IMG/VR virus record: IMGVR_UViG_3300027865_000022
Location: 1-37,065 of that record
From: a virus
Length of the DNA stretch: 37,065 nt
Reading direction: 5' to 3' (one strand)
Below, piece by piece: positions 4,300 to 30,876 of the stretch. The notes beneath the pieces were generated by a model. It saw nothing but the letters and a program-made list of their open reading frames with translations, did not search any database and was not told where the DNA came from. Position numbers and translations under genes: made by a program. Each line of letters starts with the position of its first letter. Position 1 is the first letter of the stretch.

Positions 4300-5316
4300 A
4301 TGGAAAACGAATTACAGGTTAAGGCATATGCAGATAAGTCCAATTCCCTAGTGGTGGAGGATGACAAAAGTCTGAAAGTCGCAAAAATACTCAAAAGGCA
4401 GATATCCAGCCTCAAGACCTTAATTACAAGCTCCACGGATGTAGAATATCGAGAAAAGAAGGATGCCTATGATGAAGCCCTGAAGGAGATTAAGTCCCTG
4501 AAGGAAGCCTATCAAAAGATACAAAATTCCCGACTGTCTTTTACCAAGCCACTGTCTCTCGCATTCAAGACCATCAAACAAAAGATTGAAAATTATAACC
4601 TTCAATGCGAGCAGGCGGAGCAACGCCGCATCGAGGAGGAGGAGAAGCTTGCTGAAGAGCAACGCCGCATCGAGGAGGAGGAGAAGCTTGCTGAAGAGCA
4701 ACGCCGCATCGAGGAGGAGGAGAAGCTTGCTGAAGAGCAACGCCGGATTTCCGAAGAGTTGAAAGCGAAAGAAGAAGAAGCCGCGCGTGCCGAAGAAAAA
4801 AGAAAACTCGATGAGGAAAAAGCGTCTCAGGAAAAGTTAGCGGCACAAAAAAAAGCGGAAACCAGTCCGGAATACGCGACACTGAAGCCCGATGCCGAAG
4901 TTGATCCTATTTGCAATCATGGTCATTATCCCGGAGACTGCGACAAGTGTAACCCTGTCAGTAAGTTAGAACAGGGGATGGTGGTGACCAAAGAAACCGG
5001 GGTCACAAATGACGGCGAGGAATGTCCAGGGTGCGATGCTGAGAGAAATGTTACCAAACCACCCCCCATTGTCCATCCGGAAGAGAAGCACGAGCCCGTC
5101 ACCAAGCAAAAAAGGGAAGTGAGGTGCCAAGTAGTGAATTTAAAATCCTTTGCCGCTGGGATAGCGTCCGGAGAGGTACCGACCGAATGCATGCGGCCGC
5201 ACACGGAGACGTTGAATAATTACGCACAAGGATTCCATAATCATGCCAAAGAAGGGGACGGTTTTTTCCCGGGATGCATGATAGTGGAGGTATGTTATAC
5301 GGGAAATATATCATGA
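4300..5316 (+). CDS. Coiled-coil protein with perfect heptad-like repeats (DUF1351-like)
   Basis: A 338-residue protein. Residues 1-105 are helical and Lys/Glu-rich, like DUF1351-type phage proteins often found near RecT. Three exact copies of the 13-residue unit EQRRIEEEEKLAE follow at about 107-145, then more charged coiled coil to about 190. The C-terminal third has paired cysteines (CNHGHYPGDCDKC and CPGC), which suggest zinc binding, and ends in an unrecognised domain. It lies between recT and the helicase, and its TGA overlaps the helicase ATG (ATGA). It may be a recombination accessory or scaffold protein; function not established. Confidence 0.7.
   Translation: MENELQVKAYADKSNSLVVEDDKSLKVAKILKRQISSLKTLITSSTDVEYREKKDAYDEALKEIKSLKEAYQKIQNSRLSFTKPLSLAFKTIKQKIENYNLQCEQAEQRRIEEEEKLAEEQRRIEEEEKLAEEQRRIEEEEKLAEEQRRISEELKAKEEEAARAEEKRKLDEEKASQEKLAAQKKAETSPEYATLKPDAEVDPICNHGHYPGDCDKCNPVSKLEQGMVVTKETGVTNDGEECPGCDAERNVTKPPPIVHPEEKHEPVTKQKREVRCQVVNLKSFAAGIASGEVPTECMRPHTETLNNYAQGFHNHAKEGDGFFPGCMIVEVCYTGNIS
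4618..4734 (+). repeat. Three perfect 39-nt tandem repeats
   Basis: Three exact 39-nt units (4618-4656, 4657-4695, 4696-4734) and a partial fourth encode EQRRIEEEEKLAE repeats. The absence even of synonymous differences points to recent duplication or conversion. Confidence 0.9.
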
Positions 5317-11616: not shown

Positions 11617-13439
11617 TCGGCCTCTCCATCAGTTTTATCCTTATCCAATTTACCATTCTGTTTCAAGGAGGAATCCAGGATGCCTCCTGTTTTGGTCTCT
11701 TTTGCCTGTGATTTGACTTTTAAGGACTCAGCAACCCCACCCACTTTATCCTTATCCAATTTACCATTCTGTTTCAAGGAGGAATCCAGGATGCCTCCTG
11801 TTTTGGTCTCTTTTGCCTGTGATTTGACTTTTAGAGACTTCAATTTAAAGGATTGTTTTATTGATCCCAGGACGCCGGAAACCTTTAATGATTCCAAGAC
11901 GCCACTGACCGTAACTGATTTTAATTGGGCTTTGAATAAATTTATCCTCCCGACAAAGGCAGTAACAATATCATCAACAATATTTACAGTTCCATTGACA
12001 CCCTCGAAAAAACCAAACATAATCCTGTCAGCTTCATCGATATTGACTATTTCGGCTATGTCCTCGAAGAAGCCAAACATCACCCTATATGCGTCACTTA
12101 GATTGACCAGCTCCTCTACAAACAATATCGGTCCTGATAAATCCCTGATGCTCTCATCAATATTCACGGATTCATTTATGGTGGGGGTGGAGCCTAAGAG
12201 GAAAACTGAGAGCTCAATTATATTTTCAACTTCGTTGATTGCCAGGATCGGTCCCCGCAAACTCCTGATAACCTCATCGATATTTATAACGTGTGATTGG
12301 GACTTAATCGATCCCAATAAATTTCCAAGACTCTCGTCAACATTAATCGCCCCATCTACTCCCACAATAAAACCGGACAACGTTTTATCGGTTTCGTCTA
12401 TGTTTTGTGCTTCGGTAGTTTCGTTGAAAAAACCGAAAAACAATTGCCCGATAGCATCTGAGATGTTTCCTGTCTCGGAATGCCCTTGGAAAAACCCCGT
12501 GTTTAGACTATCATCCTCGCTGATAGAAACAGTATCGCTCGCAGTGGGAATAAGCAACTTTTCTCCTTTTAAAATAAAGCTTGCCGACCTGACCGGAATT
12601 ACTGTCACGTCCCCCCAAATACCGGCAACAGGGTCGGGGGTTGCTTCCAATACAATATCAGCTATATTGTTAGTCGATACAGAGGGGAGACCTAAACTTA
12701 ATTTAAATTGTTGGAACCTGGTATAGGAATTTGTAAAAAGTTGAGTCACTTCTGAGGCCAATAACCCCCGTTCGTATAAATTGATTTCACCAATAAGACC
12801 ATCAAAATAATTAAATGAAACCGTCCCACCCCAAACACCTACTTGCAAATCATTACTGTTAAAAGTGACAAAGCTTTTACTGTGGGCTCCCGATGAGGCC
12901 AAAACCCCATTTTTGTACAGATAAATATTAGTAGACGTGACGACTCCGACCAAATGAACCCACTCCCCAGCTATTTGAGGAGTTAGAACTCTAATCCCAT
13001 CGCCAGACCCAAGCTGATATCTCCATTCATAGTCAGAATCCCTTAACCCTATCCAAAAATTACTACTCCCTCCAGGAGATATTGCCTTCGAATCAACGAT
13101 ACCAACGGTATCATTAAAATCCGGATCTGTATGCACGGCATCGTGTTTCAACCAGATGCTCACAGACCACGGATAATCGTCAACAGATATAACTCCATCC
13201 GGGATATCTATAGAATCATCAGTCCCATCAAAATCCAACGCCCAACCATTCCGGCCAATAGCCCAGGTTGCGTCATCAATTACGCCTAAATTGTTGTATA
13301 GCGATGAATCAAAAACAGTGCCTCCTGCGCCCTCATTTAAAAGCCAAGAGCCGATTAGGCCATCAGACAGAGGATTAGACAGGCCGGGAACCAGTCCGAA
13401 CGGTGGTTTAATATCGTTGTATGAATGCAATAGAGGCAT
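11604..13439 (-). CDS. LamG/concanavalin-type adhesin-like tail protein with C-terminal repeats
   Basis: A 611-residue protein. Residues about 20-240 are a LamG-like lectin fold: GLIGSWLLNEGAGGTVFDSS, LDFDGTDDSIDIPDG, WSVSIWLKHD, EWVHLVGVV and YKNGVLASSG. From about 300 to 510 there are imperfect repeats of roughly 30 residues built on the theme ...NIDE..R.L.G.... The last 90 residues are Lys-rich and contain a near-perfect 37-residue duplication. It probably binds host surface glycans as part of the tail tip, with the repeats as a stalk. A Lys-rich duplicated tail is unusual for such proteins. Confidence 0.65.
   Translation of the reverse strand: MPLLHSYNDIKPPFGLVPGLSNPLSDGLIGSWLLNEGAGGTVFDSSLYNNLGVIDDATWAIGRNGWALDFDGTDDSIDIPDGVISVDDYPWSVSIWLKHDAVHTDPDFNDTVGIVDSKAISPGGSSNFWIGLRDSDYEWRYQLGSGDGIRVLTPQIAGEWVHLVGVVTSTNIYLYKNGVLASSGAHSKSFVTFNSNDLQVGVWGGTVSFNYFDGLIGEINLYERGLLASEVTQLFTNSYTRFQQFKLSLGLPSVSTNNIADIVLEATPDPVAGIWGDVTVIPVRSASFILKGEKLLIPTASDTVSISEDDSLNTGFFQGHSETGNISDAIGQLFFGFFNETTEAQNIDETDKTLSGFIVGVDGAINVDESLGNLLGSIKSQSHVINIDEVIRSLRGPILAINEVENIIELSVFLLGSTPTINESVNIDESIRDLSGPILFVEELVNLSDAYRVMFGFFEDIAEIVNIDEADRIMFGFFEGVNGTVNIVDDIVTAFVGRINLFKAQLKSVTVSGVLESLKVSGVLGSIKQSFKLKSLKVKSQAKETKTGGILDSSLKQNGKLDKDKVGGVAESLKVKSQAKETKTGGILDSSLKQNGKLDKDKTDGEAEWTG
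11634..11833. repeat. 89-nt exact repeat, 111-nt period
   Basis: Positions 11634-11722 and 11745-11833 are identical, with a 22-nt variable linker between them (111 nt offset = 37 codons). They encode the repeated Lys-rich C-terminus of the LamG-type protein. Identity at synonymous sites shows the duplication is recent. Confidence 0.85.
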
Positions 13440-22795: not shown

Positions 22796-23821
22796 TTAAG
22801 TAAGAAGTGTATCTTTCCACATAAAGCCCAGGTCCGCACCAGAAACGACATAATCGGTGGATTCCCTGACCTCGTAGACATCTCTATGGTCAACGCCTTC
22901 TCGGTGTTTTTCTGTTAGCCTTACCAAGTCGTTTTTCATGTTCTCGCGGCATTCGTAAAGCGCGTTTGGTTGCTCCAAAGCGGGGGTTGCTGTGGCATAA
23001 TAAAGAAAACCCATCCCTTTTGTAGCGGTGTTCTCCCAGATCAAAGCGGAGGTAAAATCTTCGCCGCCTTTTGTCTCTATGGCGGTGGATGTAATTGCCC
23101 CGGCGATAAAAACCTTGAAATCATTATTCGTTGTCATGTTGAACAACGAAGCCAATAGGCTGGTGGTAATGATTTTATCCTTTGTGATTTGTAAACGATC
23201 AAGTAAAGTTGCTTCCAAAACCAACGACAGCCAGGTACCGGAATCAATAATCAATCGGTTGGGAAAAAAACCGGTGTTTTGGTGAATCGTGGTAATTCTG
23301 GCAAAAACATCAACGAGAAAAGTATTATTATCACTCGCAGCCCAAAGACCGCCAGCGTCCTCACCACCGGCCGATTGACCACTCCATGCAGTTGCTTTCA
23401 CCAACGCAGCCACACGGGATTCTTTGCTTAGGTCAATTTTGTCAGACACAAAATTAATGGCGTTAATGTCCAGGTTTAGCGGAGGAGAACCGGACTGTTT
23501 GGCGATCCGGCGGTCTTTGTCGTAGACCTCCTTGGCAAAGCCATATTCTATCGGGTCAATATTCACCTCACCGGTAGGATAGCCACCACGAACGGAGCGA
23601 CCTCGCCCGACGGGCTTGGCTTCATTGCGGAACCACGCCCCCTTTTTATAGGTCAGGATTTTTGATTTGTTTGTTACATTGGTGATAACAGGGAAAGCTC
23701 GCTCATTATTCGCCCTACTGCCTCCCTGGATATAATCTCGGTTGTTGTACATAACGCTGACATTAGCCAGCGGCCCTCTAACTATAAGGGCTTGAGCGTC
23801 TGGTTGTGGCATTTTTCGCAC
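22796..23821 (-). CDS. Major capsid protein
   Basis: A 341-residue protein in the capsid position, between the decoration protein and the gp36-like connector. Recognisable parts: SVMYNNRDYIQGGSRANNER, FVSDKIDLSKESRVAALVKA, FPNRLIIDSGTWLSLVLEAT and a C-terminal VSGADLGFMWKD; these are the features of HK97-fold capsids of the group encoded next to decoration proteins. Residues about 148-162 (QSAGGEDAGGLWAA) are encoded by the 42-nt segment 23337-23378 that the mini-CRISPR spacer matches. The start ATG has AGGAG at a normal distance. Confidence 0.85.
   Translation of the reverse strand: MRKMPQPDAQALIVRGPLANVSVMYNNRDYIQGGSRANNERAFPVITNVTNKSKILTYKKGAWFRNEAKPVGRGRSVRGGYPTGEVNIDPIEYGFAKEVYDKDRRIAKQSGSPPLNLDINAINFVSDKIDLSKESRVAALVKATAWSGQSAGGEDAGGLWAASDNNTFLVDVFARITTIHQNTGFFPNRLIIDSGTWLSLVLEATLLDRLQITKDKIITTSLLASLFNMTTNNDFKVFIAGAITSTAIETKGGEDFTSALIWENTATKGMGFLYYATATPALEQPNALYECRENMKNDLVRLTEKHREGVDHRDVYEVRESTDYVVSGADLGFMWKDTLLT
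23337..23378 (+). other. Capsid-gene segment matched by the mini-array spacer (self-protospacer)
   Basis: Compared with 29996-30037 the match is 39 of 42 nt. Mismatches fall at spacer positions 16, 17 and 35 counted from the repeat's GAAAC end. On the plus strand the three bases 5' of the segment are CTC. A plus-strand transcript of the spacer would be antisense to capsid mRNA. Confidence 0.85.
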
Positions 23822-28944: not shown

Positions 28945-29184
28945 TTAAACAGTTGCAAGCCATTGCTTTAATGGTGTAAAGTCGTCTCGTTGTACACTTT
29001 TTTTGATAAAAAATATTTGGAGTTCATGTGCCGGCATTCTTTTAAAATCTGCACCGCATTGGTTACACCTCATCTCACCGTCATCGCCGCAAAGAGCTTC
29101 CCATTTACACCCGTGATGGCGCCAGAGCAATTCCCTTAATATTCTTTCGTCTTCAGTCATTTTAATCATCGGCATCACATCCAC
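28945..29184 (-). CDS. Small zinc-ribbon-like protein between terminase and portal
   Basis: A 79-residue protein whose start overlaps the end of the terminase nuclease gene. Contains RELLWRHHGCKWEALCGDDG and CNQCGADFKR, a likely metal-binding group of four cysteines plus histidines. Starts at 29184, 29175 or later are all possible; the G-rich stretch upstream fits either of the first two. Similar short proteins occur at this spot in other phages, without known function. Confidence 0.6.
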   Translation of the reverse strand: MDVMPMIKMTEDERILRELLWRHHGCKWEALCGDDGEMRCNQCGADFKRMPAHELQIFFIKKSVQRDDFTPLKQWLATV

Positions 29185-29897
29185 CCCCCCATGCCCTTAG
29201 TCACACATACTGGCCCACGGTCAGATCGGTGATTATCGGGTGCGTCAACATAGTCACTCATTTGCGCAAAATCTCGCGGTGTATTAGTGGCCTTGTAATC
29301 GAAAGCTGCATAGATTGTAATAGCAACGTATACAGCCATCGACACCGCCAGGACAAGGTCATCATGGTCACCCTCCCGCCATGCTGCGTAACTGTCGTGG
29401 GCCGTCTTGGGATTTATCTTGACTTTGAAATTGAGCAGTTCTTTGATAAGGATGTCAGCTGCTTTTATTCCCTTGGCAATCTTAAGCCGATCCTTTTGAA
29501 ATTGCACCAGCAGGCGCATAACGAGGTCTCGCTTGGGAATTCTTATTATTCTCCCCTCCCTGGTCATATTGTCTCCGCCATGGATTTTGATACAATACGG
29601 GGATAGTCCTGCTTGGGTAAACATATCAACCACCGGCGCTCCCACTCCAGTACCATCCACTACCAAGATTGCACCCCCCCCAAGCTTTTTATTTTTTTGC
29701 ATCTTCCCCACCATCTTGACGATCTTGGGGTAGGGCGTTCCCAGCTTGTACCGCTTCAGGTGCCGGACATGGAACTCAATTAAAGACTCTTTGTTGTCGA
29801 TGGGCGTCACCTTGCGCTCAACAACGCACTCAGCAGTATAATCTTGTGATTGGCCGAGATCCAGACCGATAAAGAAATTACTGGGGACTGTTTTCAT
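29175..29897 (-). CDS. terL: Large terminase subunit, C-terminal nuclease half
   Basis: A 240-residue protein carrying the RNase H-fold nuclease of TerL: FFIGLDLGQSQDYTAECVVE (first Asp), AILVVDGTGVGAPVVDMF (second acidic site) and GDHDDLVLAVSMAVYV (third). It has its own ATG (29897), only a weak GAAGG-type site, and no ATPase motifs. The matching ATPase half is a separate frame at 30131-30876, 233 bp upstream. Together they equal one normal TerL of about 490 residues. The cut falls at the domain linker, so two interacting proteins could still cut DNA at packaging. Whether the gap is spliced or simply untranslated cannot be seen here. Confidence 0.85.
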   Translation of the reverse strand: MKTVPSNFFIGLDLGQSQDYTAECVVERKVTPIDNKESLIEFHVRHLKRYKLGTPYPKIVKMVGKMQKNKKLGGGAILVVDGTGVGAPVVDMFTQAGLSPYCIKIHGGDNMTREGRIIRIPKRDLVMRLLVQFQKDRLKIAKGIKAADILIKELLNFKVKINPKTAHDSYAAWREGDHDDLVLAVSMAVYVAITIYAAFDYKATNTPRDFAQMSDYVDAPDNHRSDRGPVCVTKGMGGWM

Positions 29898-29952
29898 TTT
29901 AATGCCAAACCTTCATCTCTTTCCCTTGCCGGCGGAGCTGCGCCGGAGCTTT

Positions 29953-29987
29953 CCCTTAACAGGTCATTTTTAATGACCTGTTAAGGG
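29953..29987. repeat. Perfect 16-bp inverted repeat (hairpin) at the start of the mini-array
   Basis: CCCTTAACAGGTCATT and its exact reverse complement flank TTT. The right arm is part of the first CRISPR-like repeat and runs into ATTGAAAC. No T-run follows on either strand, so it is not an intrinsic terminator. A second small hairpin, CCGGCG-GAGCTG-CGCCGG, lies just left of it (about 29930-29948), flanked by two copies of CTTTCCCTT. Confidence 0.8.
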
Positions 29988-30074
29988 ATTGAAACGCAGC
30001 CCAAAGACCGTTAGCGTCCTCACCACCGGACGATTGAGTAGAGTTACAGTTGAGACCTGTTAAGGGTCTGAATT
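29959..30074 (+). CRISPR. Putative mini-CRISPR array: repeat, one 42-nt spacer, degenerate repeat
   Basis: The core GACCTGTTAAGGG occurs at 29975-29987 and 30054-30066, a period of 79 nt, which fits a 37-nt repeat plus a 42-nt spacer. The first repeat (29959-29995) ends in ATTGAAAC, the 3' end and crRNA tag of many type I and III repeats. The second (30038-30074) keeps TGAA but is degenerate at its 3' end, as terminal repeats often are; the 5' halves of the two differ. The segment between them, 29996-30037, is the stretch that matches the capsid gene (39 of 42), and the match stops at both repeat edges. No cas genes are seen in the window apart from a Cas4/RecB-like nuclease, so it would depend on the host. 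With only two imperfect repeats the CRISPR label is a hypothesis; the capsid match is direct observation. Confidence 0.6.
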
Positions 30075-30130
30075 AGTCATAAGGCATTCCTTTCGTAATA
30101 AAATTAAACAAAATCCGACAATTATTGAAC

Positions 30131-30876
30131 TCACAAAAACAAAGGCTCCACGTCGTCAGTAATCGCGGCCATGACCATATCGAACGGAAAAACTTGATCT
30201 AGGGTCTCAACAAACTCGCACATATATTCCTGCCTAAACCACCAATCAGTCATACTGCCTAGCTCTTCTTTTAAAAATTCTTCGGTAATTCGGGGGCACT
30301 GATTAGCTGTAATCTTGACTCTGTTCCATCGCTCATCACTGATCCATTTTTCATAAAACCATCCCCGTTTTCCCCATGGGGTGGTTAATCCGACCAGTCG
30401 CCCTTTTGAGACTGCAAGCATCGGCCGAACGGTATAATAAAGATCGTCCATCACCCGCGCCGCTTCGTCGATTATTATCAGCTTTACGTCGCTGTAGCAC
30501 CGGATAGTCCCTTCTTTTCCAGGTAATGCAACAATCCTGCTACCGTTTGAGAATTCAAGCTGTAAAGCGGTTTCTTTGGTCGCGTGCGCAAAGTCCGGGT
30601 ATTTTTTATGAAGCGCCTTGACTTTATTGAATATTTCCGCGGATTGACGCTCTGATGGTGAGACAATGAGGATAAGCGCCGGTGCGTAAAATACCGCTTC
30701 ATGGTATGCCGCAGCCGCCGATACGGTGCTTTTTCCAGACTGGCGGCTACATAGCAGGAGCGTATTTTCCCTCCTCCTGTCAAGAAAATCTTCTTGCCAA
30801 GGATCAGCAAAAAACCCACTATCAGTAAAAAAAAAGTGGGCACCATTGCCGCTCTTAGTTTGGCTTCAGTTAGCAT
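30131..30876 (-). CDS. terL: Large terminase subunit, N-terminal ATPase half (needs -1 frameshift)
   Basis: Start ATG 30876 gives MLTEAKLRAAMVPTFF, a normal TerL beginning, then the frame must move back one base in a T9 run to continue as FTDSGFFADPWQEDFLDRRR. The 248-residue product has Walker A SRQSGKST (44-51), Walker B LIIIDEA (about 133-139), coupling motif GLTTPWGKRGWFYEKW, and ends FVETLDQVFPFDMVMAAITD plus a short tail. It powers DNA packaging. Without the shift, the zero frame runs to 30484 as a basic, non-homologous peptide. The start overlaps the upstream gene by 11 nt. The frameshift could be programmed, due to polymerase slippage, or a homopolymer sequencing error. Confidence 0.8.
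30826..30832 (-). promoter_or_regulatory. Candidate -1 slippery site U UUU UUA in terL
   Basis: On the minus strand, zero-frame codons TTT TTT TTA give the heptamer T TTT TTA at the end of the T9 run 30827-30835. Slipping back one base gives exactly the frame of the ATPase. The run lies in the loop of a 6-bp stem (CCCACT / AGTGGG). One extra T would also restore the frame, so a sequencing error remains possible. Confidence 0.5.

Follow-up and report, generated by a model that had tools for sequence, protein, structure and literature searches.

The feature described here is known from one metagenomic contig, IMG/VR record IMGVR_UViG_3300027865_000022, whose 37,065 nt constitute the window that was analyzed. 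It occupies a 233-nt gap (29898-30130) between two terminase genes, and all the genes near it are on the minus strand. On one side lies the terminase nuclease gene (29175-29897, minus strand; phrog_27743), which has a weak DNA_pack_C match and 59% identity to its counterpart in L004, the nearest relative. On the other lies the terminase ATPase gene (30131-30876, minus strand; phrog_7579, terminase large subunit), which is apparently frameshifted and of which a 233-aa frame is 57% identical to L004. At a T9 run (30827-30835, minus strand), a single base disrupts the ATPase frame, as a result of either a sequencing error or a real frameshift. In L004, the ATPase and nuclease genes overlap by 4 nt; in the other relatives, this gap ranges from about 0 to 690 nt and holds no such repeats. 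Because both flanks belong to the syntenic terminase pair of a single phage family, we judge from the assembled sequence that an assembly chimera is unlikely.

Within this gap, a single spacer is flanked by two CRISPR repeats (29959-30074, plus strand). The leader-side repeat, R1 (29959-29995), retains an intact 3' end of 21 nt, GACCTGTTAAGGGATTGAAAC, and has an altered 5' half. It is followed by a 42-nt spacer (29996-30037) and by the terminal repeat, R2 (30038-30074), in which the 5' 29 nt, GTAGAGTTACAGTTGAGACCTGTTAAGGG, are intact and the final 8 nt are decayed. The 13-mer GACCTGTTAAGGG recurs at 29975 and 30054, a spacing of 79 nt that equals one 37-nt repeat plus one 42-nt spacer; the coordinates and period first reported for this core are thus correct. 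Cas6 processing leaves an 8-nt 5' handle on the crRNA. R1 does end, as had been noticed, in ATTGAAAC (29988-29995), which we predict to be such a handle; an 8-nt Cas6 handle is described in PMC8501985. When the undamaged portions of the two repeats are combined, the 5' one from R2 and the 3' one from R1, the resulting composite repeat is also 37 nt long: GTAGAGTTACAGTTGAGACCTGTTAAGGGATTGAAAC.

What has become of the 5' half of R1? In its place stands a perfect 17-bp inverted repeat with a 3-nt loop (29952-29988; arms at 29952-29968 and 29972-29988), such that the 5' half is an inverted copy of the 3' half. RNA folding of this region gives a z-score of -5.6 against shuffled sequences. As a consequence of the inverted repeat, the 13-mer is present three times, once inverted, and the likeness between R1 and R2 is restricted to their 3' halves. 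The 13-mer also brackets the entire stretch as an inverted repeat (29953-29965/30054-30066). A separate GC-rich hairpin (29929-29950) lies between R1 and the start of the nuclease gene.

The spacer has a near-match within the phage's own gene for the major head protein (22796-23821, minus strand; phrog_1005, E = 4e-35), about 6.6 kb from the array. The matching segment, 23337-23378 on the plus strand, encodes QSAGGEDAGGLWAA on the minus strand. Identity is 39 of 42 positions (93% over 43 nt by blastn), and the match stops exactly at the repeat edge on either side. No more than 22-26 of 42 positions matched anywhere in the window when the spacer was shuffled (300 shuffles), and the alignment confirms the match to the capsid gene, ending at the repeat boundaries, that was originally reported. 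The mismatches fall at spacer positions 16, 17, and 35, and codon comparison bears out the claim that they lie in two codons and change Ala to Ser and Gly to Asn (A151S and G157N). A target matching the spacer at 42 of 42 positions would encode the peptide QSSGGEDANGLWAA.

Where might such a sequence have come from? A search of IMG/VR with the single capsid sequence revealed no close relative, while an alignment-based search detected 49 distant ones. In this family, columns 151 and 157 are both variable; serine is common at 151, and a targeted search found asparagine at 157 in natural relatives. The strongly conserved capsid columns of this stretch are unaltered. Since both differences fall at variable columns and introduce residues seen in relatives, the spacer plausibly derives from the capsid gene of a related phage, as the first-pass annotation suggested, and by sequence such an origin fits better than random decay of the self copy. 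For an origin in a relative, it is slightly unexpected that none of the 14 codons carries a synonymous change. A diversity-generating retroelement template and variable pair was considered and rejected because one of the differences is T versus G on the coding strand and does not involve adenine, the match spans only 42 nt, and no reverse transcriptase was found among the phage ORFs scanned. A 31-nt partial self-match in L027 is a coding coincidence.

A perfectly matching target had been expected among viral contigs, and none was found in IMG/VR: no capsid gene there surpasses the phage's own copy as a match to the spacer, the next best reaching 29 of 42. The intended target is therefore not in hand. 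BLAST searches of phages and plasmids gave no similar DNA, only chance-level short matches. Three findings had been named at the outset as speaking against a phage-borne array, namely a repeat resembling that of no CRISPR array, related phages carrying the capsid fragment without repeats, and a spacer that no capsid gene matches better than the self copy. Only the last was made, within IMG/VR; no phage carrying the bare fragment was encountered, and a repeat with the same end is used in a bacterial genome.

Sequence comparisons allow us to identify the repeats as CRISPR repeats with high confidence. The 19-nt repeat end has one match in 84,980 bacterial and archaeal genomes, which is about as many as chance could yield, but the setting of this match is informative. 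It extends to 21 nt, the 3' end of R1 being identical at 21 of 21 positions to the repeat of locus L014 in an uncultivated bacterial MAG (G001). The L014 repeat, GTAGTAGTACCCAGAGACCTGTTAAGGGATTGAAAC, has a GTAG start and lies behind a promoter-like leader. When 386 genomes around this MAG were scanned with a 23-mer, allowing up to three mismatches, the only genomes with matches were G001 and G009, a member of the same small phylum; G009 likewise has a leader, a repeat, and a decayed second repeat. Arrays adjacent to cas1 in this phylum have 37-nt repeats built to the same plan (GTAGAAATTAGAGACCTGACACAGAAGGGATTGAAAC in G001, GTCGGAAACAGAGACCTGATGAATAAGGGATTGCGAC in G002, and GTAAGAACCTGAGACCTGATACGGAAGGGATTACGAC in G008); R2 shares with them the 5' GTAG start and the core GAGACCTG, and their spacers, of 36-52 nt, bracket the 42 nt seen here. 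Aligned to the array repeats of the phylum and to its orphan repeats, the composite repeat scores z = 4.8 to 9.3, the value against the L014 repeat being 9.3. The G002 array adjoins csm2-5 and cas10 (type III-A), that of G008 adjoins cas10 and cmr1, 3, 4, and 6 (type III-B), and that of G001 adjoins cas6, cas1, and cas2. The exact repeat end in a bacterial MAG and the same family beside cas genes in its phylum support the CRISPR identity that had been proposed for the repeats.

No full array with an identical repeat was found; the exact 3' end occurs in G001, and cas-linked arrays carry repeats of the same family. Scans of IMG/VR with exact 21-mers and 18-mers of the repeat returned nothing or coding coincidences in T4-like phages, and an occurrence of GACCTGTTAAGGG in L004 lies within a terminase gene and is likewise a coincidence. 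No Rfam family scored above its threshold (CRISPR-DR2, 17.2 against a cut-off of 37), and the repeat sequence was not found printed in the literature searched. The spacers of the arrays of the related phylum gave no convincing match to the phage. Capsid relatives are present in two of nine genomes of the phylum, a putative host group, and also in many other places.

G001 and G009 also contain orphan elements consisting of a leader plus a repeat (L120, 1263-1440 and 2300-2441; L119, 1070-1350). Promoter-like sites are conserved in them, and they contain a palindrome (GAGTTAA...TTAACTC). Those in G001 flank a VapBC-like toxin-antitoxin pair. These elements are possibly CRISPR-derived small RNAs.

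Might the stretch instead have arisen by duplication of a capsid fragment, with a copy of a short element, mobile or palindromic, on either side? The 13-mer inverted repeat that flanks all of it is what such an element could leave. Nevertheless, the repeat family, the 37-nt length, the 42-nt spacing, the ATTGAAAC end, and the GTAG start are all as in cas-linked arrays, and no flanking duplication is seen. Sequence already disfavors an origin outside CRISPR, which we regard as highly improbable.

Of the explanations considered, the one that we hold to be somewhat probable is a leaderless, phage-borne mini-CRISPR array of one spacer that uses a type III-associated, host-derived repeat in conflict between phages. 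We infer that the CRISPR repeat was probably captured from a bacterial host, itself putative, by recombination. Taking ATTGAAAC as the 5' handle places the array on the plus strand. Transcription of that strand would allow the host Cas6 to release a crRNA composed of ATTGAAAC, the 42-nt spacer, and the remnant of R2. A host type III complex (Csm or Cmr) would load this crRNA and attack the major head protein mRNA of closely related phages superinfecting the same cell, presumably to the competitive benefit of the carrier. With the spacer on the plus strand and the capsid gene on the minus strand, the crRNA is complementary to capsid mRNA and therefore has the complementarity to mRNA that type III targeting requires; chance alone would give this fit half the time. 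Strand orientation and the type III association of the repeat family both bear out the earlier suggestion that the unit would suit type III targeting.

Several features count against an active array. There is no leader, and neither strand has a promoter-like or terminator-like site between 29600 and 30300. R1 has a long hairpin where its normal 5' half should be, and R2 lacks the consensus final 8 nt. Together with the retention of the array in no relative, the missing leader and promoter and the damage to both repeats are what one would expect of an inactive relic, a repeat-spacer-repeat piece of a host array that entered by illegitimate recombination and is decaying without a function. Yet a compact 37-kb record retains the array between two essential genes, and R1 has preserved its 3' 21 nt, in which the predicted handle and Cas6 site lie. 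Furthermore, the R1 hairpin is perfect, which suggests a recent origin or selection. We consider a relic unlikely, though it is the alternative to be taken most seriously.

The strandedness of the neighborhood raises another possibility. Because the flanking genes are all on the minus strand, a read-through RNA antisense to the array is more certain to be made than a plus-strand one. The locus could then serve as an RNA anti-CRISPR or decoy, its repeats titrating Cas6 or Cas7, or its minus-strand mRNA soaking up type III complexes. RNA anti-CRISPRs (Racrs) are known (PMC10651486), and the same repeat family is found in solitary form in other phages. A solitary repeat, however, suffices for a Racr, and the flush 42-nt capsid spacer is left unexplained unless the host carries an identical spacer; no host array with the same spacer was found among the arrays of the phylum that were examined. 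Taken as a whole, a role of this kind seems distinctly improbable to us. More doubtful still is its specific decoy form, in which late minus-strand mRNA, carrying the capsid target and a perfect anti-tag, would bind type III complexes without Cas10 activation. Were it true, the phage, near-identical at the target, would survive a host spacer directed against its own capsid.

The guide is 93% identical to the phage's own capsid gene and type III systems tolerate mismatches, so why an array directed at relatives would not harm its carrier is a sharp puzzle. The first-pass annotation proposed that mismatches or the lack of a proper PAM spare the carrier, an idea for which we find no support where type III is concerned. 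Of the 8 nt adjoining the self target, three agree with the crRNA tag, so tag pairing would not mark the self target as self: the phage's own mRNA lacks anti-tag pairing. The positions of the mismatches also appear to matter little, as mismatches in the corresponding segments had mostly minor effects on a type III-B complex, shorter complexes being stricter in the third segment (PMC8376896). On this analysis, neither the mismatches at positions 16, 17, and 35 nor the lack of a matching tag is likely to protect the phage from type III, and its own capsid mRNA would probably be recognized as well, which counts against our main reading. This leaves temporally restricted expression, an inactive unit, or a different role, whether as a decoy, as an RNA anti-CRISPR, or in self-regulation.

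Self-regulation would mean that an imperfectly matching, crRNA-like RNA tunes the phage's own capsid expression through host Cas proteins, in the manner of CreA. The own capsid gene is indeed the best match anywhere, and creA genes typically have two degenerate repeats (PMC8501985). CreA, however, pairs with a promoter through a short seed, whereas here 39 of 42 positions match inside a coding region, and the two amino-acid differences resemble the natural variation of a relative and not tuned mismatches. We regard self-regulation as very unlikely.

How does the locus compare with systems already described? Mini-CRISPR arrays that target relatives are established for the archaeal portogloboviruses SPV1 and SPV2 (Medvedeva 2019, PMC6858448). 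Like those arrays, ours has one or two spacers (here one) between CRISPR repeats, is intergenic, and belongs to a virus without cas genes: no cas families were found among the phage ORFs scanned, the sole near-hit being a weak Cas4-like match of a PD-(D/E)XK exonuclease. As in SPV1 and SPV2 (PMC6858448), point mutations separate the own locus from the spacer, which here plausibly derives from a related virus. The arrays of SPV1 and SPV2 possess promoter-bearing leaders and match a co-occurring virus perfectly, whereas here there is no leader and no known target; in addition, the first repeat is altered, the carrier is a bacterial phage, and the repeat is type III-associated. An earlier survey, as it is discussed in PMC6858448 and PMC11656645, recorded leaderless mini-arrays directed against relatives in bacteriophages and prophages. 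Judged by that discussion, the present array shares with them the absence of a leader, a spacer putatively directed against a gene of a related phage, and a likely exchange with host arrays, and differs from them in its near-self capsid match, its type III-associated repeat family, and the 17-bp hairpin of R1.

With RNA anti-CRISPRs and other solitary repeat units, the locus has in common a CRISPR repeat in a phage without cas genes (PMC10651486). It is not a solitary unit, however, since it has a spacer and a second repeat 79 nt downstream, and no promoter was found. The CreA guides of CreTA modules also consist of two degenerate repeats and one spacer-like stretch with an imperfect match (PMC8501985). 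Here, in contrast, there is no toxin RNA, and a long match to a coding region takes the place of the seed match to a promoter, so that the locus is not built as a CreA guide is.

Mini-arrays in viruses are thus already known; this one stands apart in that its repeat is of a type III-associated family, its spacer nearly matches the carrier's own capsid gene, R1 has a hairpin, and the array sits in the packaging operon. So far, it is mainly among archaeal viruses that virus-encoded mini-arrays have been linked to competition. If a bacterial phage were clearly shown to use a type III-associated repeat in this way, RNA-targeting immunity would join the means of inter-phage conflict. The altered R1, together with the position in the packaging operon, makes the self-targeting puzzle testable.

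Solitary repeats of the same family were detected in phage contigs from IMG/VR that are roughly 20 to 160 kb long (L139-L143). L143 has two of them, 37 nt each (GTAGAAAAATGAGACCTGATTAATAAGGGATTGAAAC), at 686-722 and 1713-1749, and L139-L142 likewise carry two; in these contigs, the second is followed by a T run and then by terminator-like hairpins. By sequence, these solitary repeats are candidate RNA anti-CRISPRs. In L144, two family repeats separated by a 32-nt spacer (14-109) lie at the end of an IMG/VR contig and are possibly the edge of a longer array. Elsewhere in our window, perfect 89-nt direct repeats occur within coding regions at 4618-4745 and 11634-11833, the former being a tandem repeat with a 39-nt period.
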